A stretch of 64,000 nt of DNA from Bacteroidales bacterium (lineage in GTDB: Bacteria; Bacteroidota; Bacteroidia; Bacteroidales; UBA932). The stretch is taken from contig JAFTCB010000042.1 in assembly GCA_017454905.1 (NCBI GenBank), positions 38,266-102,265 of the forward strand, written 5' to 3'. Below are positions 8,913 to 55,167 of the stretch, piece after piece (the stretch's first letter is position 1; every line of letters begins with the position of its first letter). A program made the translations under genes and the position numbers. The notes beneath the pieces were generated by a model. That model was not told where the DNA came from and ran no database searches. It was given only the letters and a program-made list of their open reading frames with translations.

Positions 8913-9806
8913 CTATTGCGGCAGGAGCAGCCGGAGGTAGTAGGGGCGCATGGGGTCGTCTACGGCGACGCTGACCGATCGGCTGGGGCAGACGGCGAAC
9001 CAGCCCAGGGCGTTCCCGCCCCGGATGTTGGTCGGTGTGTTGGCCGGCTGGGGCGAGAAGATCGGGATGGAGATCCCGCTCATCCGCAGGGCGGTCAGGA
9101 AGTCGAAATACCCCTTGTCCAGGGTCAGCACTTTCAGCGTGATGACATCGCCGGACTCGAGATACTTGAAACAGTCGCCGTAGCGCTCCTGCAGCGCGGC
9201 GGTCTGGAGCAGCGTCGTGATCGGGAACCCGGTCACGTCCTTGCCGTTGAACAGTTTGTCGTCCATCACCTCGGTCATGATGAAAGGGTACCAGTTGCCG
9301 TTGACGGCAATGGAGACCTGGTAGTAACTCGCCACTTCGTCGTCCTTGCCCCAGAGCGCCAGGGTCCAGAGGCTGTCGATGCCCTTGGCCTTGTTGCCGG
9401 CGAAGGCGTAGTCGATCGCGTCCAGGCGGAAGCCCGGCTCCGGCATCGAGGCCTCGGCTTCATAGACTTGTCCTTCCGGGAGTTCGACCTGCAGGTGATA
9501 GGTCGCGCCGGCCTCGCAGCAGAAGCCCTCCGGTGCCGCGTAGCGGCCATCACCTTCGTCCGAGAAGACGATGTCGTTGACGCGGACGTGCGCGCCGGTG
9601 ACGGCGGGATCCGCCTCTTCCTGGAAGTAGGACACGGTCCGGGAGAGGACGACCTGCTGGGAATCTGCGGGATCGTCCGTCAGGACGGACTCCACGGTCA
9701 GGTAGTCGTGGTAGTCAGAACGGGAATGCACGGACATCTCTTCCGTGCAGGCGGAGGCCAGGAGCAGCAGGAGCGGCAGGGCGGTCAGGATCGGGAATCT
9801 TCGCAT
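8913..9806 (-). CDS. DUF4249 lipoprotein
   Basis: 297 residues from the ATG at 9806. The signal peptide ends in a lipobox (LLASAC), and the mature protein begins C-T-E-E, compatible with the acidic surface-export signal of Bacteroidota lipoproteins. The body has the DUF4249 pattern: an early 'VESVLTDDPADSQQVVLSRT' strand segment, a transthyretin-like fold region, and 'GGNALGWFAV' near the end. Members are typically encoded right after a TonB receptor with a carboxypeptidase-like domain, as here (4-nt gap), and probably cooperate with it at the cell surface. The ligand is unknown. Confidence 0.82.
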   Translation of the reverse strand: MRRFPILTALPLLLLLASACTEEMSVHSRSDYHDYLTVESVLTDDPADSQQVVLSRTVSYFQEEADPAVTGAHVRVNDIVFSDEGDGRYAAPEGFCCEAGATYHLQVELPEGQVYEAEASMPEPGFRLDAIDYAFAGNKAKGIDSLWTLALWGKDDEVASYYQVSIAVNGNWYPFIMTEVMDDKLFNGKDVTGFPITTLLQTAALQERYGDCFKYLESGDVITLKVLTLDKGYFDFLTALRMSGISIPIFSPQPANTPTNIRGGNALGWFAVCPSRSVSVAVDDPMRPYYLRLLLPQ

Positions 9807-9810
9807 GGCC

Positions 9811-12165
9811 TCAGAATTTGATGTTGTAGGAGACGGAGGGGATGATGCTGAACAGGTACACCTTGAAGGGCTGGGTCCGGTTCTCCTCCTGGATATACCG
9901 GAAATCCACGGTCCAGGCGTTGTGGCGCGCATAGACGTTGTAGAAGGAGAGGTTCCATTCGCCGCTCCAGCGCTTGCCCTCCACGCGTTTCCGCGTCCGC
10001 CAGGTGACGGACAGGTCCAGCCGGTGGTAGTCCGGCAGCCGGTCGAGGTTGCGGGTGGCGTAGACCGGTTTCCACTGGTCCATGTAGCGGAAGCGGCCGA
10101 CGGGATAGGTGGTCGGCGCGCCGCTGTAATACACCCACTCCGTGGAAGCCGACCACTGCTTGGAGAAGTCGTAGGTCAGTACGAAATTGACGGCGTGCTC
10201 ATGGTTCAGCGGGGAAGGGTATGGCTCGCCGCCGTTGAGCTCCGGGATGTGGTAGGTGGCACGCGACCAGGTGTAGGCCAGCCAGCCGTTCCAGCGGGCG
10301 AAGTCGTATTTGAGCATCAGCTCGGCGCCGTAGGCCCGGGAGTCGCCGAAGCGGAGCAGACCTTCCCGGTCGGGGTTGTCCAGCACCAGACCGGGATTGT
10401 CAACGAAGTCCATCGCGCCCTGGTTGTGTTTGTAGAAGGCCTCCAGGGAGAGCTGTAGCGCCTGGTCGGCGAACAGGGCGTTGATCCCCGCGGAGAACTG
10501 GTCCGAGACCTGGGGCCGGATGCCCGGCGAGGCGGTGAACCAGGTGTCGACGGGGCTGCCGCTGATGCTGACGCGGGCCTGCTGGAGGTACTGCACGGTC
10601 CGGGACCAGGCGGCCTTGAGGGAGAGGTCTTCGAGCACGGAGAGCGAGGCGGAGATGCGCGGCTCCAGGCCCGTGTGGGTCTGGATGGGGGTGCCGCTTG
10701 CAATGGTCTGCACCTCCGTCAGCGCATGCGAGATGGGGTCGAATAGCCGCTGCTCCGTCGGCCCGAAGGTCGTGAAAGAGGAGAAGCGCAGGCCGTAGCG
10801 CAGGGTGAGGCTGCGGATCTTGTGCTCGTTCTGGATATACGCAGAGGGCTGGAAAGCGTGGATCCCGGGCATCTCGACCCGGTTGACCATGCTGCTCTCT
10901 TCGCGGGGATCGGTGGTCCCCGGGGAGATGGAGAACCAGGCCAGGTTCACGCCGGCGCGGAAGGTCATGTCCGGCCGGGGGTACCAGGTCCATCCCGTCT
11001 TGACGCCCGTCTCGCGGATGCCCTGGAGGTAGTCGAAGGCCGCGTCCGGCATGTCGGTGCCGATCGTGTTGCGGAACAGGGAGTTGTAGGCCGTGACATC
11101 GGAAGTCAGCTTCTGGCCCCAGATGTGGTTCCAGCGGAGGGACTGGGTGTGGTTGGCGTTGCCGAACTGCATGTGCCCGAAGTCGAAGTCCTCCAGGCTG
11201 AAGCCGAAGATGTCGCTGCCGCTGAACGCGCTCAGGTACAGGCGGTCGCGGCTGCCCGCCGTCCAGCTGAGCTTGGCGTTGGCGTCGTAGAAGAACATCC
11301 GGGTCTTGTCCGGAATGCGGTCGCCCAGCAGGGGGAAGAAGAGGTCGAGGTAGGTGCGGCGGGCGGAGAGCATGAAGGAGAGTTTTTCCGGGACGATGGG
11401 CCCTTCGACGAAGATCTTGGAGGTGATCAGGCCGATGGAGGCGTTGCCGCCGAAATGCTGCTTGTTGCCGTCCTTGGTGGAGATGTCCAGCACGGAGGCG
11501 ATGCGCCCGCCGTACTGGGCGGGGAAATCCCCCTTGTAGAGCTCTGCGCTGCGGATCGCGTCGCCGTTGAACATGGACAGGAAGCCCAGGAAATGCCCGC
11601 AGTTGTAGATGGGGGCGCCGTCCATCAGGATGAGGTTCTGGTCCACGCCGCCGCCCCGTACACTGAAGCCGGTGGCCCCTTCGCTCGGCGCCTGGACGCC
11701 GGGCATCATCTGGATCACCCGGATGATGTCGGCTTCGCCCATCAAGGTGGGGAGGCGCTGCACGAGGGCGGCGTCCACCCGCTCCATGCCGAGCTGCGGC
11801 AGGACCAGCTCCTGACGTTTCGAGCGGGAGAGGATGGTCGCTGCATCCAGCTGCTCGCTTTCCGCTTCCATCCGGAAATCCAGCTTCTGCGTGCTGCTGA
11901 CCCCGGCTTCCGCGGTCTTGTAGCCGAAGTAGCTGCAGTACAGCGTGTGGCTGCCGGGCGGCAGGGTGAGGGAGTAGAAGCCGCTGCCGTCGGTGGCGAC
12001 GGCGGTCTTGCGGTCCTCCAGGTAGAGCACCGCCTGGACGAGCGGCTCGCCGCTGGCGGCATCCGTCACGTGGCCGGAGACCACGGCCCTGCGCCCCTGG
12101 GCGCCTGCCGGAAGCGACAAGGCCAGCCAGAGGAGGGGGAGGAGGATGCGGCGGGCAGCGGTCAT
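9811..12165 (-). CDS. TonB-dependent receptor with carboxypeptidase-like regulatory domain
   Basis: 784 residues with a signal peptide (ends LPAGAQG). Residues about 25-105 are a carboxypeptidase regulatory-like domain ('VSGHVTDAASGEPLVQAVLYL'). The plug domain follows ('PTLMGEADIIRVIQMMPGVQAPSEGATGFSVRGGG'), then a 22-strand-type barrel ending in 'SVSYNIKF'. It is not the SusC type. With the DUF4249 partner it forms a widespread Bacteroidota outer-membrane pair of unknown substrate. It begins 5 nt after the UvrA2-like stop and so seems co-transcribed with that gene. Confidence 0.88.
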   Translation of the reverse strand: MTAARRILLPLLWLALSLPAGAQGRRAVVSGHVTDAASGEPLVQAVLYLEDRKTAVATDGSGFYSLTLPPGSHTLYCSYFGYKTAEAGVSSTQKLDFRMEAESEQLDAATILSRSKRQELVLPQLGMERVDAALVQRLPTLMGEADIIRVIQMMPGVQAPSEGATGFSVRGGGVDQNLILMDGAPIYNCGHFLGFLSMFNGDAIRSAELYKGDFPAQYGGRIASVLDISTKDGNKQHFGGNASIGLITSKIFVEGPIVPEKLSFMLSARRTYLDLFFPLLGDRIPDKTRMFFYDANAKLSWTAGSRDRLYLSAFSGSDIFGFSLEDFDFGHMQFGNANHTQSLRWNHIWGQKLTSDVTAYNSLFRNTIGTDMPDAAFDYLQGIRETGVKTGWTWYPRPDMTFRAGVNLAWFSISPGTTDPREESSMVNRVEMPGIHAFQPSAYIQNEHKIRSLTLRYGLRFSSFTTFGPTEQRLFDPISHALTEVQTIASGTPIQTHTGLEPRISASLSVLEDLSLKAAWSRTVQYLQQARVSISGSPVDTWFTASPGIRPQVSDQFSAGINALFADQALQLSLEAFYKHNQGAMDFVDNPGLVLDNPDREGLLRFGDSRAYGAELMLKYDFARWNGWLAYTWSRATYHIPELNGGEPYPSPLNHEHAVNFVLTYDFSKQWSASTEWVYYSGAPTTYPVGRFRYMDQWKPVYATRNLDRLPDYHRLDLSVTWRTRKRVEGKRWSGEWNLSFYNVYARHNAWTVDFRYIQEENRTQPFKVYLFSIIPSVSYNIKF

Positions 12166-48085: not shown

Positions 48086-49441
48086 ATGGACAAATTCACA
48101 CAGAACTACGTCGATCGCTTCATGGATGAACTGATCGCGCACAACCCTGGCGAGAAAGAATTCCACCAGGCTGTCCGGGAGGTGGTGGAAAGTGTAGCAC
48201 CTTATGTCACCTCTTACCCTTATCTGATGGATCTCAAGATCCTTGAGCGGATGGTCGAACCGGAGCGGGTCATCATGTTCCGCGTCCCCTGGACCGACGA
48301 CAAGGGCGAAATCCATATCAACCGCGGATACCGTGTACAGATGAACAGTGCCCTCGGCCCCTACAAAGGCGGCATCCGCTTCCACGCCAGCGTCAACCTC
48401 AGCATCCTGAAGTTCCTCGCCTTCGAGCAGACCTTCAAGAACTCCCTGACCACCCTCCCGATGGGCGGCGGCAAGGGCGGCTCCGACTTCAGCCCGCGCG
48501 GCAAATCCGACGCCGAGGTGATGCGCTTCTGCCAGAGCTTCATGACCGAACTGCAGCGCCACATCGGCGCCGACACGGACGTGCCTGCCGGTGATATCGG
48601 CGTGGGCGGCCGCGAGATCGGCTACATGTTCGGACAGTACAAGCGCCTGCGTGATGAGTTCACGGGCACGCTGACCGGCAAGGGCCTTGCCTGGGGCGGC
48701 AGCCTGCTCCGCACGGAGGCCACCGGCTACGGCGTGTGCTATTTCGCACAGGAAATGCTTGCCACCCGCGGCGAGAGCTTCGAAGGCAAGACGGTGGTCG
48801 TGTCCGGCGCCGGCAACGTGGCCCAGTACGCCGCCAAGAAGGCGATGGCCCTGGGTGCCAAGGTCGTCACCCTGTCCGATTCCGACGGTTTCATCTACGA
48901 TCCCGACGGCCTCGACGAGGAGAAGCACAAATTCGTGCTCGAACTCAAGAACATCCGCCGCGGTCGCATCAAAGAATATGTTACCAAATATCCCAATGCC
49001 CAGTACTTCCCGGGTGAGCGCCCCTGGCGCATCCCCTGCGACATCGCGCTCCCTTGCGCCACGCAGAACGAGATCGAGAAGGCCGATGCCGAGAACCTGG
49101 TGAAGGGCGGCTGCTGGTGCGTCGTCGAGGGTGCCAACATGCCCTCTACCCCGGAAGCCATCGCCATCTTCCAGGCGAAGAAGATGCTCTACTCGCCGGG
49201 CAAGGCGTCCAACGCCGGCGGCGTGGCGACATCCGGCCTGGAGATGACCCAGAACTCCATCCGCCAGAAGTGGACCGCCGAAGAGGTCGACGAGCACCTG
49301 CACCGTATCATGTCCGACATCCACGCGGCCTGCATCAAGTACGGCACCGAGGAGGACGGATACATCAACTATGTCAAGGGTGCCAACATCGCCGGCTTCA
49401 TCAAAGTGGCCAACGCGATGGTGGACCAGGGACTGGTCTAA
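48086..49441 (+). CDS. gdhA: NADP-type glutamate dehydrogenase
   Basis: 451 residues, typical of the hexameric small-type GDH (about 450). Substrate site 'GPYKGGIRFH', catalytic lysine in 'PMGGGKGGSDF' (K130), 'PAGDIGVGGREIGYM', dinucleotide motif 'VSGAGNVAQYAAKKA', and 'GANMPSTPEA'. NADP specificity is suggested by the overall similarity to GdhA; the residue pattern after the Rossmann strand ('LSDSDG') is consistent. It assimilates ammonium into glutamate. Followed after 7 nt by the receiver/ATP-grasp gene. Confidence 0.95.
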   Translation: MDKFTQNYVDRFMDELIAHNPGEKEFHQAVREVVESVAPYVTSYPYLMDLKILERMVEPERVIMFRVPWTDDKGEIHINRGYRVQMNSALGPYKGGIRFHASVNLSILKFLAFEQTFKNSLTTLPMGGGKGGSDFSPRGKSDAEVMRFCQSFMTELQRHIGADTDVPAGDIGVGGREIGYMFGQYKRLRDEFTGTLTGKGLAWGGSLLRTEATGYGVCYFAQEMLATRGESFEGKTVVVSGAGNVAQYAAKKAMALGAKVVTLSDSDGFIYDPDGLDEEKHKFVLELKNIRRGRIKEYVTKYPNAQYFPGERPWRIPCDIALPCATQNEIEKADAENLVKGGCWCVVEGANMPSTPEAIAIFQAKKMLYSPGKASNAGGVATSGLEMTQNSIRQKWTAEEVDEHLHRIMSDIHAACIKYGTEEDGYINYVKGANIAGFIKVANAMVDQGLV

Positions 49442-49448
49442 ACCTGAT

Positions 49449-52388
49449 ATGAACAACACGGATTATACACAACTGATGGCCAGGAGGATTCGAAGGATCC
49501 TCCTGGTTTGTAACAACTATGACAGCTTCTCTCTCGAAGAGGACGGACACATTGAAGCCCAGATCAGCCAGGACTACGCGGAACTCAACCTGAGCAACCC
49601 GCCGGCCATCGTCCGGGCGGAGTCCACGCTCGAAGCGCTGGAGGTGCTCCGCACCGACACGCATTTCGACCTCATCATCACGATGTACAACGTCGGCAAG
49701 CTGGACGTATTCGATTTCTCCGTCCAGGCCAAGGAGATCGTGCCCGACACGCCGATCGTCCTGCTGTCCTCGTTCTCGAAGGAGATTTACCGTCACATCG
49801 CGGACCGCGACCATGCCGGCCTGGACTACGTCTTCTGCTGGAACAACAGCACGGACGTGCTCATCGCCATCATCAAGCTCCTGGAGGACAAGCTCAACGC
49901 CGAGCATGACTGCCTGGAGATGGGGGCCCGCGTCATCCTGTTGGTGGAAGATTCCGTGCGCTACTATTCGACCTATCTGCCGCTGCTTTACAAGCTGGTC
50001 CTCCAGCAGAACAGCGAAGCGGTGCGCGACGCGCTCAACGAGGAGCAGCAGTTCCTGCGCAAGCGCGCCCGCCCCAAGATCCTGATGGCCACGTGCTACG
50101 ACGAGGCCTATGATTACTACCAGAAATACAAGAACAACATCATCGGCATCATCTCTGACATCGGCTTCGTCATCCACAAAGGCGACAAGCGCGAGACAGA
50201 GAAGATCGACGCGGGCATCGACCTGTGCCGCCTGGTCCGCCGGGAGAACCCGACGCTGCCCTTCCTGATGCAGTCTTCGCAGGAGAGCATGCGCGCCGTG
50301 GCCGAGCAGCTGGGCGTGGGCTTCGCCCTCAAGTCCTCCAAGACCCTCACCCACGATGTGTCCGAGTACATCGGCCGGGAGTTCGGCTTCGGCGATTTCA
50401 TCGTCACCGACCCGGATACGGGGATGGAGGTGGCCCGCGCAAAGAATCTCTATGAGTTCGAGCAGGTGATCAAGGGGATGTCCGACCGCGCCCTGCGCGA
50501 GCTTGCCGACAAGAACTACATCTCCCGCTGGCTCTACGGGCGGGGCATTTTCGCGATCGGCGACCTCTTCCGCCCGATCCGCATCAACTCCGACGAGGAT
50601 GTCGCGCATGTGCGAGAAATGAATCTCCGGATGATCCGGGATTACCGCATCAACCAGGGGCTCGGCGTGGTGGCCAGCTTCGATCCCGCCACCTACAACG
50701 ACGCGATCTGGTTCGCCCGCGTGGGCAAAGGCTCGCTGGGCGGCAAGGCACGCGGCCTCGCGTTCCTCAACCACATTCTCCAGAAGTACGACCTCTACGA
50801 CAAATGGGACGATGTGCGCGTGCTGGTGCCGCGTACCCTCGTGATCACGACCGAATTCTTCGACCGCTTCATCCGCGAGAACGGCCTGCAGTACGTGATC
50901 AATTCTGATATCTCGGATGCCGAGATCCTCTCGGAGTTCGTGGCGTCGTCGCTTCCGCAGAAACTCACGGACGCCCTGCGCGTCTTCATCAGGCATGTCC
51001 GCAAGCCGCTGGCCGTGCGCTCCTCCTCCAAGCTGGAGGACTCCTACTATCAGCCCTTCGCGGGGGTCTATTCGACCTACATGATCCCGCACACGGAGAA
51101 TGAGGACCAGCAGCTCCGCCTGCTCTCCAAGGCCATCAAGAGCGTCTACGCCTCCGTGTATTTCGCCTCGTCCAGAGGCTACATCACCGCCACGGCCAAC
51201 GTGATCTCCGAGGAGAAAATGGCCATCGTGCTGCAGGAAGTCTGCGGCAGCGAGGACCGGGGATACTATTTTCCGACCTTCTCGGGCGTGGCCCGCTCGG
51301 TCAACTTCTACCCGCTCGGCTACGAGACCCCGGAGGACGGCGTCGCGAAGGTTGCCTTCGGCCTGGGCAAGGCCGTCGTGGACGGCGACCAGGTGCTGCG
51401 CTTCTCGCCGAAGTACCCGCGCAACGTCCTGCAGACTTCCACGCCCGAGCTGACGATGACGGAAACCCAGCAAGCGATGTTCGCGCTGAACCTCCAGCCG
51501 GACAAATTCAAGACCTCCGTGGACGATGCAGTCAACCTCGACCGCATCCCCATCACCGATTGCGGCGGCTTCCGCAATTTCGCCAAGGTCGTCTCCACCT
51601 ACGATTACGAAAACATGCGCATCGTGGATTCTCCGGCCCCTGCCGGGCCGAAATTCGTCACTTTCGCGCACATCCTGAAATACAACACCTTCCCGCTCTC
51701 GGACATCCTCAATGAACTGCTGGACATCATGCAGAAGGAGGTCAAATGCGGGGTGGAAATCGAATTTGCGGCCAACATGGACGTCGGTCCCGACCGGCCG
51801 GCCATCTTCAACGTGCTGCAGGTGCGTCCGATCTCGGCTGACGGCCTGGATGCCGAAGTGGACTGGTCCGGCCTGGATGCGGAAGGGGCGATCATCTCCT
51901 CCGGCAGCGCCATCGGCCCGGGCTGGATCAATGGTGTCCGGGACGTCATCTACCTGCGCGAATCGGCCTTCGACGTGCTCAAGACGCGGGAAATGGCTGC
52001 CGAACTCAAGGAACTCAACGCCCGGATGCGGACGGAGGGAAGGCCCTATGTGCTCGTCGGCTACGGCCGCTGGGGTTCCAGCATCCCTTCGCTGGGCGTT
52101 CCGGTGCAGTGGAGTGACATCTCCGAGGCGCGCGCCATCGTGGAGTGCTGCCTGGAGCATTTCCGGGTGGACCCGAGCCAGGGAACGCATTTCTTCCAGA
52201 ACATGACTTCCTTCAACGCGGGCTACGTCAATGTCAATCCGTACGCCCGGGACGGAGAGTGCTTTGATGCGGCGCGGCTGGATGCGATGCCCGCCGAGTT
52301 TGAAACGAACTACCTGCGCCTGGTGCATTTCCCGGAGGACCTGCAGATCTGCATCGACGGCCGCACGGGGAAGGCGTTGATCAAATAG
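49449..52388 (+). CDS. Receiver-receiver-ATP-grasp protein (PEP synthase/PPDK N-domain-like)
   Basis: 979 residues. Residues about 15-150: receiver-like fold lacking the phosphoacceptor Asp (T78/M79 region). Residues about 160-315: second receiver with the acidic pair E167/D168, acceptor D237 ('ISDIGF') and K295. Residues about 425-795: the ATP-grasp domain of PEP synthase/PPDK ('GSLGGKARGLAFLN', 'LAVRSSSKLEDSYYQPFAGVYSTY', 'FGLGKAVVDG', end 'NVLQVRPI'). Residues 796-979: a C-terminal domain with 'LVGYGRWGSSIPSLGVPVQW' and 'DPSQGTHFFQN'. The swivel domain with catalytic His and the PEP-binding barrel are missing. Likely a signal-controlled ATP-dependent phosphotransferase; acceptor unknown. 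Confidence 0.85.
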   Translation: MNNTDYTQLMARRIRRILLVCNNYDSFSLEEDGHIEAQISQDYAELNLSNPPAIVRAESTLEALEVLRTDTHFDLIITMYNVGKLDVFDFSVQAKEIVPDTPIVLLSSFSKEIYRHIADRDHAGLDYVFCWNNSTDVLIAIIKLLEDKLNAEHDCLEMGARVILLVEDSVRYYSTYLPLLYKLVLQQNSEAVRDALNEEQQFLRKRARPKILMATCYDEAYDYYQKYKNNIIGIISDIGFVIHKGDKRETEKIDAGIDLCRLVRRENPTLPFLMQSSQESMRAVAEQLGVGFALKSSKTLTHDVSEYIGREFGFGDFIVTDPDTGMEVARAKNLYEFEQVIKGMSDRALRELADKNYISRWLYGRGIFAIGDLFRPIRINSDEDVAHVREMNLRMIRDYRINQGLGVVASFDPATYNDAIWFARVGKGSLGGKARGLAFLNHILQKYDLYDKWDDVRVLVPRTLVITTEFFDRFIRENGLQYVINSDISDAEILSEFVASSLPQKLTDALRVFIRHVRKPLAVRSSSKLEDSYYQPFAGVYSTYMIPHTENEDQQLRLLSKAIKSVYASVYFASSRGYITATANVISEEKMAIVLQEVCGSEDRGYYFPTFSGVARSVNFYPLGYETPEDGVAKVAFGLGKAVVDGDQVLRFSPKYPRNVLQTSTPELTMTETQQAMFALNLQPDKFKTSVDDAVNLDRIPITDCGGFRNFAKVVSTYDYENMRIVDSPAPAGPKFVTFAHILKYNTFPLSDILNELLDIMQKEVKCGVEIEFAANMDVGPDRPAIFNVLQVRPISADGLDAEVDWSGLDAEGAIISSGSAIGPGWINGVRDVIYLRESAFDVLKTREMAAELKELNARMRTEGRPYVLVGYGRWGSSIPSLGVPVQWSDISEARAIVECCLEHFRVDPSQGTHFFQNMTSFNAGYVNVNPYARDGECFDAARLDAMPAEFETNYLRLVHFPEDLQICIDGRTGKALIK

Positions 52389-52394
52389 AATACT

Positions 52395-53279
52395 ATGAAA
52401 CGATTGCTGATAAATATTTTACTCCTCGCAACCTGCTTCTTCGCTTCAGCGCAGCAGCCCTACGAATCCACGGCGGAGGACATCGCCCTCGGCGAAATGC
52501 TCCTTCGGGATCTCGGCACGGCGGCCGCCCGGCAGAGCGGTCCCGAACTGATGATCCGCGCCGCCAAGGCGATGCTCGGGATGGAATATGTCCCGAACAC
52601 GCAGGAGGGCAGGGAGGAGAAACTCCGCATCTACCTGACCAAGACCGACTGCATCCTTTTCGTGGACAACACCCTGGGGCTCGTGCGGACCGCCGGGAAG
52701 CTGCGGGAAAACGCCACCTTCGAGGACTTCGCGCAGACCCTGGAGCCCGCCCGCCACAACGGGCAGCGCGTTGCTGAGGGCTACGAGGGCTATGCTACGC
52801 GCGTCCACTATGTCACGGAGTGGATTGATCGGGGCGTCGAGGCCGGAGTTTTCCGCAACCTGACCGGGGAACTGGGCGGCGTGCCCGATACGCGCAGGAT
52901 TGATTTCATGTCCAGGCATCCGGACAGTTATGCCCCCCTGACCGGGGAATCCCCGAGTGCCGGACGCAACCGGCGGGACATCGCCCGGATGGAAGAAGCC
53001 GTGAACCGGATTCCGCGCTACTACATTCCCAAGGACCGGGTCGCTTCCGTCGAAAACCGGATCCAGTCCGGCGACATCCTCTGCTTCGCCACTTCCATCG
53101 ACGGACTGGACTATTCCCACGTCGTGATCGCCTACCGGGAGAAGAAGGGGGACAGGCTGACGTTCATCCATGCTTCCTCGGCGGCCAAGAAGGTCATCGT
53201 CGAACCCCGCACGCTGGAGGCCTACCTCCAGGCACACGGCAAGATCACGGGAATCTCCGTACTCCGACTGAATCAGTAG
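52395..53279 (+). CDS. DUF1460 secreted cysteine hydrolase (amidase-like)
   Basis: 294 residues, signal peptide ends FASAQQP. The DUF1460 family adopts an NlpC/P60-like papain fold; the putative nucleophile is the Cys in 'TKTDCILFVDNTLGLV', and the catalytic His is in 'DGLDYSHVVIAY'. 'ARHNGQRVAEGYEGYATRVHYVTEWID' is a conserved substrate segment. Family structures suggest cell-wall amidase activity. Located 6 nt after the ATP-grasp gene, third in the gdhA operon. Confidence 0.82.
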   Translation: MKRLLINILLLATCFFASAQQPYESTAEDIALGEMLLRDLGTAAARQSGPELMIRAAKAMLGMEYVPNTQEGREEKLRIYLTKTDCILFVDNTLGLVRTAGKLRENATFEDFAQTLEPARHNGQRVAEGYEGYATRVHYVTEWIDRGVEAGVFRNLTGELGGVPDTRRIDFMSRHPDSYAPLTGESPSAGRNRRDIARMEEAVNRIPRYYIPKDRVASVENRIQSGDILCFATSIDGLDYSHVVIAYREKKGDRLTFIHASSAAKKVIVEPRTLEAYLQAHGKITGISVLRLNQ

Positions 53280-53280
53280 T

Positions 53281-55098
53281 TCAGGCGAAAAGCTCTAACA
53301 GCGTATCTTTCTTGAGGTCCCGGAAGTCGATTTCGGGATCTTTTGTTTCCGTGAAGCCGGCTTCGAGCAGCAGTTCGCGCAGGGACAGGAAGCAACGCGC
53401 CTTGCGCGCGATGACGGCTTCCTTGCGTCCTGCGTCCGCACCGCCGGAGACGCGGCCGCGCCCGGTGGCGAGGTCCATCAGGAAGATCCAGCCGCCGCTG
53501 ACGACGGCCAGCATCTTCTCCCGCCGGTCGGAGACCAGCTCTTCGTCGATGACTTTCGCATTCGGGTCCACCATGTAGTTCGCGGAGAGCTCGGCGATCT
53601 CCTGCCGCCCGAGGAAGAAACGGAAACGGCTGCCTTCCCCGCCTTCGAAGCGGTTGCAGTACACCGTGCCGTCCGGACAGCCTTCCCGGCAGAAGAGGAT
53701 CTCGGCGGCTTCGGGATCAGCCTCCGTCATGTCGCCGGAATAGATCACCTCTCCGGTGTTGTATGCGGCATTCCAGCCGGTCTTGGCGCCGCTCCAGTCC
53801 ACGAAACTGATGTCGAAATCGTGGGTGCCCCATTCCTCCCGCCAGTAGATGCCGAAGAAATTGTGGTCCGACATCGCATAGCAGGAGCCGAAGGGGAGGT
53901 TGCCCACGAAATTCTTTTCCGATGTCGGGCAGGTGAGCGTGAGCCCCTCGGGGAAGCGGACGCTGCACGCCTTGGCGGAGAGGTTCTGCACCAGGCGCTC
54001 ATGCAGCACGCGCTCGAGCATCTGCAGGTATTCGCGGCAGTTCTCCCGTTGCGGGGCGTCTTTCATCCACAGGGAGCCGTTCCGGATCAGATACATCACC
54101 GGGTCGCCGGGTTGCGTGAGCAGGCGTTCGCGGATGGTCTGCAGCAGGGTGACCAGCTTGAAACTGGACACTTCGTCCAGCCGGGTGCGCAGCGCCTCTT
54201 CGCTGACGTCTGCGGCGAGCAGGCTTTCCCAGAAGCCCTTCTGCATCGGGACGTGATGCCGGGGAGCAGCGCGGCGCAGGCGGTTGATGACCGCCCGGTT
54301 CGGCGCCGGCCGCAGCACGATGGCTTTCCGCTTGGCGTCGTAGTTCTCCTGCGTGCGGAAAGCGAGGAAGAGGTCCTTGAAGCGGTAGAAGATGCCGGCG
54401 AGCCCGTCCAATTCCGCTTGCGAGAGCTGGCGGAAATCGAAGGGGGCCGTGCTCCGGCGGATTTCCTGCAGGACCGCGTCCGACTGGATCAGCAGGGTCC
54501 CGCCGGTCGTCTCGTAAAGGATGTAGCGCAGCAGGTCCACGGGTCGGGAGGGACGGCGCCCGAGGGCTTTGCACAGGATGCTGAGCCCCTCGCGGTTGCG
54601 GATGGCGTCGATGTCGAAGGGAGTGTCAGGATGCTTCTCCAGCCAGTCCGTGACGGCGCTGCACAGCGCGGCTGCGGTCGCACTCTTGAGGGCGGCTCCG
54701 CCCTGCAGGAGGGCCAGGCAGCGCCGGTAGAGCTCTTCGCCGGTCATGGGCAGGATGAGCGTGTAATTGCTCAGTTCCGGCGCCTCTGCTCCGTCATTGG
54801 GCACCCAGCCGTTGCCTTCCTGCGTGAAGCCGGTCCCGTATGTGGAGGCGTAGTGTGTGATCTGGTCCAGGAAGAGCGCGAAACGGTCTTTCTGCCGGAT
54901 GTCCTCCCACCGTTTGTAGAAGGTCGAATTGGGGTCGGCCGTCTGCCGGGCGATGAATTCTTCCAGCTCCGTGTTGAGCAGGTCGGGGTGGATGATGAAG
55001 CCGCATTTGAGGGCTTCGGAGCTCAGGCGGACGGGGTCGGACGCTGCCGGCGCACCGGGTACGGCGGCCTTGAAAAACTGTATGAGGGTCGGATCCAT
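53281..55098 (-). CDS. Uncharacterised 605-residue protein
   Basis: 605 residues from the ATG at 55098 (a TTG 6 nt earlier is possible). No signal peptide or membrane helix, so cytoplasmic. The first 350 residues are mostly helical ('LLRYILYETTGGTLLIQSDAVLQEIRRS', 'AVINRLRRAAPRHHVPMQKGFW'). The C-terminal third is beta-rich and has 'GTHDFDISFVDWSGAKTGW' (Asp at 427 and 429), which recalls the LDLS-type acidic motif of TerD/tellurium-type proteins and their large helical partners (MXAN_6230/SCO0854 type). That relation is a weak impression, not a match. It has its own promoter and a hairpin-T8 leader. Confidence 0.55.
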   Translation of the reverse strand: MDPTLIQFFKAAVPGAPAASDPVRLSSEALKCGFIIHPDLLNTELEEFIARQTADPNSTFYKRWEDIRQKDRFALFLDQITHYASTYGTGFTQEGNGWVPNDGAEAPELSNYTLILPMTGEELYRRCLALLQGGAALKSATAAALCSAVTDWLEKHPDTPFDIDAIRNREGLSILCKALGRRPSRPVDLLRYILYETTGGTLLIQSDAVLQEIRRSTAPFDFRQLSQAELDGLAGIFYRFKDLFLAFRTQENYDAKRKAIVLRPAPNRAVINRLRRAAPRHHVPMQKGFWESLLAADVSEEALRTRLDEVSSFKLVTLLQTIRERLLTQPGDPVMYLIRNGSLWMKDAPQRENCREYLQMLERVLHERLVQNLSAKACSVRFPEGLTLTCPTSEKNFVGNLPFGSCYAMSDHNFFGIYWREEWGTHDFDISFVDWSGAKTGWNAAYNTGEVIYSGDMTEADPEAAEILFCREGCPDGTVYCNRFEGGEGSRFRFFLGRQEIAELSANYMVDPNAKVIDEELVSDRREKMLAVVSGGWIFLMDLATGRGRVSGGADAGRKEAVIARKARCFLSLRELLLEAGFTETKDPEIDFRDLKKDTLLELFA

Positions 55099-55102
55099 GG
55101 TC

Positions 55103-55167
55103 AAAAAAAAGAGATCGCGGAAAGTAAAATGCCAAAAAGCGGAAATAGGAACTTTCTATGCGATCTC
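55103..55167 (-). terminator. Terminator-like hairpin in the leader of the 605-residue gene
   Basis: On the minus strand, 8-bp stem GAGATCGC/GCGATCTC (arms 55160-55167 and 55111-55118) with an inner 6-bp stem GAAAGT/ACTTTC, followed by eight T (55103-55110) and then the ATG at 55098. It lies between the promoter at 55173-55180 and the gene, so it can stop transcription before the coding region. Confidence 0.65.

Follow-up and report, generated by a model that had tools for sequence, protein, structure and literature searches.

What is the function of a protein that carries two receiver domains in front of an ATP-grasp domain of the pyruvate phosphate dikinase (PPDK) type, and whose gene directly follows that of glutamate dehydrogenase (GDH)? 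We addressed this question for P0001, a 979-residue protein encoded in 64,000 nucleotides of a Bacteroidales genome of the UBA932 lineage (assembly GCA_017454905.1, contig JAFTCB010000042.1, positions 38,266 to 102,265; hereafter the window). The protein has the order receiver, receiver, ATP-grasp, tail; its receiver and ATP-site residues are conserved, ATP-grasp plus tail forms a core common to several paralogues, and the family is linked with two families of GDH. The explanation that we tentatively prefer, giving it a little less than an even chance, is that the protein would be a signal-gated, ATP-dependent regulator acting chiefly on the neighbouring GDH and hence on the 2-oxoglutarate/glutamate node. 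We favour this reading because receivers, or a nucleotidyltransferase, surround a constant ATP-using core that is repeatedly paired with two GDH families. Coordinates are collected in Table 1.

Table 1. Positions of the gene, its neighbours and the parts of its product in the window.
Feature	Position	Strand	Basis
P0001, receiver-receiver-ATP-grasp-tail protein, 979 aa	49449..52388	+	ORF list and Pfam
Rec1, degenerate receiver-like domain, aa 10-158	49476..49922	+	Response_reg matches; residue counts
Rec2, intact receiver, aa 158-320 (E167, D168, D237, S276, K295)	49920..50408	+	Response_reg matches; residue invariance
D237, predicted phosphoacceptor of Rec2	50157..50159	+	residue invariance
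Conserved linker, aa 321-420	50409..50708	+	alignment of relatives
PPDK_N-type ATP-grasp domain (PF01326), aa 429-799	50733..51845	+	Pfam; conserved ATP-site residues
Tail domain, aa 797-979, GxGRWG and SxGTHFF motifs	51837..52385	+	alignments; tail-only profile
H914, tail histidine (SQGTHFF), putative phosphate carrier	52188..52190	+	52/52 rows
gdhA, NADP-specific glutamate dehydrogenase	48086..49441	+	NF006929, E=4.7e-226
AmiA-like N-acetylmuramoyl-L-alanine amidase	52395..53279	+	PF07313, E=1e-26

The whole chain matched PPDK_N in Pfam with E=1.2e-36 (127 bits, cut-off 27) and gave a sub-threshold Response_reg match at residues 53-116 (E=1.2e-4); a match to TAF was at chance level (E=0.23). 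ATP-site residues K433, R524, E772 and Q791 are present in all 97 full-length relatives of one alignment (A2) and show no exception in a second alignment of 54 rows, whose loci were collected solely by tblastn-type similarity; the open reading frame (ORF) was chosen with a preference, though no requirement, for the tail motif. In the PDB, the best sequence relatives of the profile were 5hv6, 5fbs, 5hv2 and 5hv1, named phosphoenolpyruvate (PEP) synthase and matched over residues 453-602; we take these entries to be enzymes of the rifampin phosphotransferase (RPH) type. Matches to NCBIfam-type families, among them PigC (4.4e-15) and RPH (0.0053), were all far below cut-off. A study of RPH reports that Lys22 and Arg117 are required for drug phosphorylation and that Glu297 coordinates Mg yet is dispensable (PMC4844700), and through the GGK, RSSS and EFA/LQ motifs these key positions can be mapped provisionally onto the 979-residue protein.

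The first-pass annotation of the window had described a first receiver without the phosphoacceptor Asp and a second with a complete acidic pair, D237 and K295, joined to an ATP-grasp core, and each part of this description was borne out. Searched domain by domain against Pfam, Rec1 matched Response_reg at E<=1 in 27 of 33 family members (best 4.5e-10, window protein 0.0087) and TrkA_N in 7 of the 33. At position 79, where the acceptor is expected, neither alignment contains an Asp, the 97 rows having M (89), V (5) or A (3), and W131 (97/97) appears in our reading of the alignment to occupy the place expected for the receiver Lys. Rec2 matched Response_reg (PF00072) at E<=1 in 30 of 33 members (best 1e-4; window protein 0.034, below the cut-off) and holds the complete receiver signature in order, namely acidic pair, acceptor Asp, Ser/Thr and Lys. 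E167, D237, S276 and K295 were each found in 97/97 rows of A2 and D168 in 91/97, the rest having N, while the 54-row alignment has E167, D168 and D237 in 53/53 (with one gap at D237) and K295 in 54/54; loss of D237 or K295 among homologues was not seen. A long region separates beta-1 and beta-2 of Rec2 as we read it. Because these five residues are conserved in the 97 full-length relatives, Rec2 looks like a real receiver.

The C-terminal 180 residues, after which the chain stops, had been called a distinct tail, and indeed no library matched them. No Pfam family was matched by more than one of 48 tails scanned (best single E=0.025), PEP-utilizers was absent from all 48, and the PDB gave no believable chain, the best hit being a lectin-pathway protease at E=0.06. 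H914, R874 and W875 are nevertheless invariant (52/52) in the 54-row alignment, in which two rows lack the tail, and both tail motifs occur in 31/31 ORFs of more than 500 residues that were picked by the ATP-grasp motif from 20 further loci. We rely on these two sets; 162 collected tails and the rows of alignments A2 and A3 were gathered partly by HFF or GRWG motifs, so that the 97/97 count for the tail motif is biased and cannot show HFF/GRWG invariance. A tail-only profile found 43 places in 25 of 148 genomes, all of them inside open frames of at least 576 residues, with no free-standing tail among these matches. As this search did not find the tail by itself, ATP-grasp plus tail is the common core. 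The tail is a conserved domain to which no Pfam family corresponds, and profile comparison detected no homology to phosphohistidine domains.

It had also been stated that neither a catalytic His domain nor a PEP barrel follows the ATP-grasp domain. This holds insofar as none is detectable by Pfam (PEP-utilizers or PEP-barrel) in the 979-residue chain or by hhalign, and needs qualifying in that the invariant H914 lies at the point along the chain that the phosphohistidine domain occupies in PPDK. On visual inspection, a His-bearing SxGTHFF stretch followed by an IDGxxGKA end had seemed a motif order compatible with a swivelling domain before hhalign gave no support. A divergent swivelling phosphohistidine domain, which we keep only as a possibility, was set aside on this comparison, in which the 162 tails scored a probability of 0.06-0.21% against PPDK, PPS, PtsI and a pool of all swivel domains, compared with 96.3% and 98.9% for swivel-versus-swivel controls. 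The genome itself (82% complete) holds one PEP-utilizers domain, in a 961-residue open frame on another contig, and a free-standing histidine domain that could act as partner was thus not found there.

The tail could still be a phosphate-carrying domain of a new kind, with the ATP-grasp domain loading H914 from ATP and the phosphate being handed on to GDH or, within the same chain, to D237 of Rec2 rather than to pyruvate. We consider this unlikely. If true, a dikinase module would either replace a histidine kinase or form the output of a two-component system, with direct control over a central enzyme of nitrogen metabolism.

Members of the family were present in 24 of 31 close relatives and in 103 of 119 Bacteroidales genomes (both counts including the genome of the window), and at the scale of the phylum in 47 of 247 genomes, five of which gave weak matches in the receiver region only. 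The window protein is of type A; paralogue B has an N-terminal extension, receivers and the core, and its equivalent of the linker gives a weak hit, below cut-off, to the C-terminal portion of DUF5752 (E=8.6e-4). A 580-residue form consists of ATP-grasp and tail without receivers, and a form of ~1060 residues has an N-terminal extension, a PPDK_N ATP-grasp domain, the same tail and a pol-beta-type nucleotidyltransferase (PF01909, E=1.5e-7). The genes for these last two lie within ~40 bp of each other or overlap in the 11 loci having both. Overall, 17 of 80 loci contain two core genes, adjacent in 16. A form of 776-778 residues is found in loci L138 and L139, with GDH not nearby.

These architectures bear on whether the protein might instead be a metabolic dikinase that acts on a small molecule of the 2-oxoglutarate/glutamate node, such as glutamate, 2-oxoglutarate or a derivative, and that the receivers only switch on. 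The tail would then bind the substrate and possibly carry phosphate on H914, as RPH does on its own histidine. An ATP-grasp domain of the PEP synthase, PigC and RPH kind would suit such an enzyme, as would the many invariant polar and aromatic residues of the tail, which fit a binding site, and the existence of the 580-residue form. However, the domains found to extend the core are of regulatory or signalling kinds (receivers, nucleotidyltransferase), no homology was detected between the tail and known substrate-binding domains, and we know of no pathway step that is missing beside GDH. We regard a dikinase as improbable, if worth keeping in view.

The pairing with GDH is what points our preferred reading, a regulator, to a target. 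GDH lies within 1.5 kb of the gene in 5 of 25 loci from close relatives (own included), 22 of 29 from a phylum set and 35 of 80 from a third set, counts of loci that include close relatives and are not independent lineages; the first two are limited by 1.5-kb flanks, 12 of the 20 close-relative loci without GDH lying near an edge. Gene order varies among the 62 adjacent cases, with GDH upstream of the gene 44 times and downstream 18 times; 57 of the 62 have both genes on one strand. To set this against chance, 40 genomes were drawn from the 103 positive genomes of the order before GDH was searched. GDH was within 2 kb in 15 of them, and there were 18 adjacent pairs among 94 compared with 0.22 expected for assumed 3.5-Mb genomes, so that the proposed conservation of the gdhA linkage among homologues is upheld. 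Clustering of neighbours at the 80 loci gave GDH at 32, followed by korB, FabD-like and FolE-like genes at 10 each.

A second GDH family shows the same association. The ~1060-residue paralogue adjoins a GdhA_Arch-like GDH, directly or across the 580-residue gene, in 13 of 15 loci that were fetched regardless of neighbours, the two misses being L327 (contig edge) and L333 (no GDH); in loci L141 and L142 core genes and GDH genes alternate. The first-pass annotation had offered a theme of nitrogen status and envelope, and the paralogues point more specifically to GDH itself. In Parabacteroides distasonis the gene is divergent from an annotated gdhA and a second GDH lies ~3.5 kb past its other end. 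Examples of the ~1060-residue paralogue clustered with the second GDH family are found in L135 (4808-7987) and L326-L340.

Two other explanations accept this linkage and read it differently. The protein could be a non-catalytic scaffold that senses ATP/ADP and holds GDH active or inactive according to energy charge and Rec2 phosphorylation, with no transfer of phosphate. The lack of a detectable phosphohistidine domain agrees with this, and tight linkage is compatible with a stoichiometric complex, but the residues aligned with RPH Lys22 and Arg117 are invariant and pure binding would not obviously need them; we think a scaffold quite improbable. Equally doubtful to us is that the genes are linked only so as to be co-transcribed, for dosage or timing, and that the true target lies elsewhere in the cell. 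Such an arrangement would explain why 25 of the 40 genomes have no GDH within 2 kb and why other neighbours recur clade by clade (FabD-like, FolE-like, transporter-like, korAB, glutamate racemase, amidase). It does not sit well with an association with two separate GDH families that is far above chance and recurs in distant families and in various gene orders.

Several observations weigh against a regulator of GDH. Besides the 25 genomes just mentioned, GDH is not adjacent in 45 of the 80 loci (12 near a contig edge), and a Prevotella record has no GDH within 7 kb of the gene. Among 16 genomes of the order without the family, 14 show a GDH match, 13 of them near full length and of the same type; since family-less genomes keep GDH, the protein is dispensable for it. 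Although we read the N-terminal extension of paralogue B as GAF-like, Pfam did not match GAF to it at E<=0.1. A partner histidine kinase, which the first-pass annotation had looked to, was not recognised by eye among neighbour families present in at least 5 of 80 loci, no profile search having been made. The korAB genes are no commoner than FabD-like and FolE-like genes (10 loci each, largely the same loci), and the korAB link may be plain clade synteny. A transporter-like gene is present at 8 loci, in 7 of them directly after the core gene on the same strand.

A candidate modification site on GDH was also rejected. GDH of the family in the window (48086-49441) shows Tyr/Phe variation at residue Y369. 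In a first data set, Tyr was found in 50 of 55 GDHs at gene-bearing loci compared with 2 of 29 from gene-less genomes, the sign test over independent pairs giving a median p of 0.125 (range 0.0625-0.625). The prediction that Y369 tracks the gene was written down before a test on fresh genomes, where it failed, with Tyr in 36/57 compared with 3/6 without the gene, only 6 of 30 gene-less loci there having a GDH of the right type. Thus there is no sequence evidence for a GDH modification site, which again counts against a regulator acting on this enzyme.

Were the protein nevertheless a regulator of GDH, its action might proceed as follows, where we infer every chemical step as well as the direction of regulation and the neighbouring enzyme as the target. 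Rec2 would receive phosphate on D237 from a small phosphodonor or from a histidine kinase encoded elsewhere in the genome, with Rec1 serving as a phosphorylation-independent docking or relay domain. Phosphorylation of D237 would alter the contact between the tail and the PPDK-type ATP-grasp domain, and the ATP-grasp domain would spend ATP, most simply by phosphorylating the tail (candidate H914). The charged or ATP-bound form would then modify or bind GDH, setting glutamate synthesis to the state of the cell. For paralogues beside korAB, the 2-oxoacid oxidoreductase is perhaps also a target.

Systems described so far resemble parts of this arrangement. PEP synthase and PPDK (PPDK_N, PEP-utilizers, PEP-utilizers_C) share with P0001 the ATP-grasp family, its conserved nucleotide residues and the presence of another domain directly behind; in P0001, by contrast, no phosphohistidine or PEP-barrel domain is detectable, the tail is unrelated by profile comparison, receivers stand in front and linkage with GDH is frequent. 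RPH and the PigC/RedH ligases likewise join a PPDK_N ATP-grasp domain to non-PEP chemistry, but the His swivel domain and own substrate-binding domain that the RPH study describes (PMC4844700) are not detectable in the 979-residue protein. Response regulators with enzymatic output also place a receiver N-terminal to an enzyme domain. Here there are two receivers, one degenerate, and the output is a PPDK-type ATP-grasp domain, for which no described response regulator appeared among the open-licence papers listed by our searches. GlnE regulates glutamine synthetase, and GarA/OdhI regulate 2-oxoglutarate dehydrogenase and GDH. P0001 would similarly be a signal-controlled partner of a glutamate/2-oxoglutarate enzyme, and the ~1060-residue paralogue has a nucleotidyltransferase as well; the domains differ, however, and the likeness would be one of role. 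Among the papers listed there was no description of the ATP-grasp plus tail family. The parts are of known kinds except for the tail; the combination of domains and the association with GDH appear undescribed in the literature searched.

Bacteroidales are dominant gut bacteria, and to our knowledge control of their GDH beyond transcription is poorly understood. With its tie to GDH, this conserved family offers a concrete candidate switch where carbon and nitrogen metabolism branch. The Parabacteroides distasonis relative is annotated 'PEP/pyruvate-binding domain-containing protein', which hides both the tie to GDH and the conserved tail.

As for the other neighbours, 10 of 80 loci carry korB in their flank. 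It shares the strand of the nearest core gene in 10/10 and is less than 400 bp from the open frame of that gene in 6/10, distances that use stop-to-stop open frames, the start codons lying further away. KorA and KorB match subunits of 2-oxoacid:acceptor oxidoreductase (KorB below the cut-off of its family), and the substrate is presumably 2-oxoglutarate. The FabD-like and FolE-like genes, so identified from our reading of their sequences, lie on the opposite strand in 10/10. With GDH at 32 loci compared with 10 for each runner-up, GDH stands out and korAB is suggestive only. A glutamate racemase gene is 3.4-6.4 kb away in 7 loci. In locus L096 (2193-12928) murI is followed on one strand by korA, korB, paralogue B and paralogue A, with 18 bp from korB to the open frame of B.

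Histidine kinases near the gene were seen as two single cases, in locus L142 and in Parabacteroides. The stretch of L142 that separates two GDH/ATP-grasp gene pairs (9788-11858) encodes a PAS histidine kinase together with a LuxR-type response regulator. The amidase, from which a link to the envelope had been drawn, follows the gene in only three close relatives (L002, L055 and L056) besides the window's own L001, that is in 3 of 133 other loci, many of them cut short. As the linkage is confined to the closest relatives, the amidase is probably not part of the system. A search for phage families gave no match.

In the window, 7 nt separate the gdhA stop from the start of the 979-residue ORF and 6 nt its stop from the amidase start. 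The start at 49449 matches the N-termini of relatives, and a longer alternative from 49371 would overlap gdhA. An antisense open frame of 975 residues (49401-52328, minus strand) covers nearly the whole gene; it probably arises as a side effect of codon usage in G+C-rich DNA, because similar long antisense frames overlie neighbouring genes. A 607-residue protein without a Pfam match at E<=1 or an NCBIfam match is encoded on the minus strand (53281-55104), adjoins the amidase and has a copy of 71% identity in locus L056.

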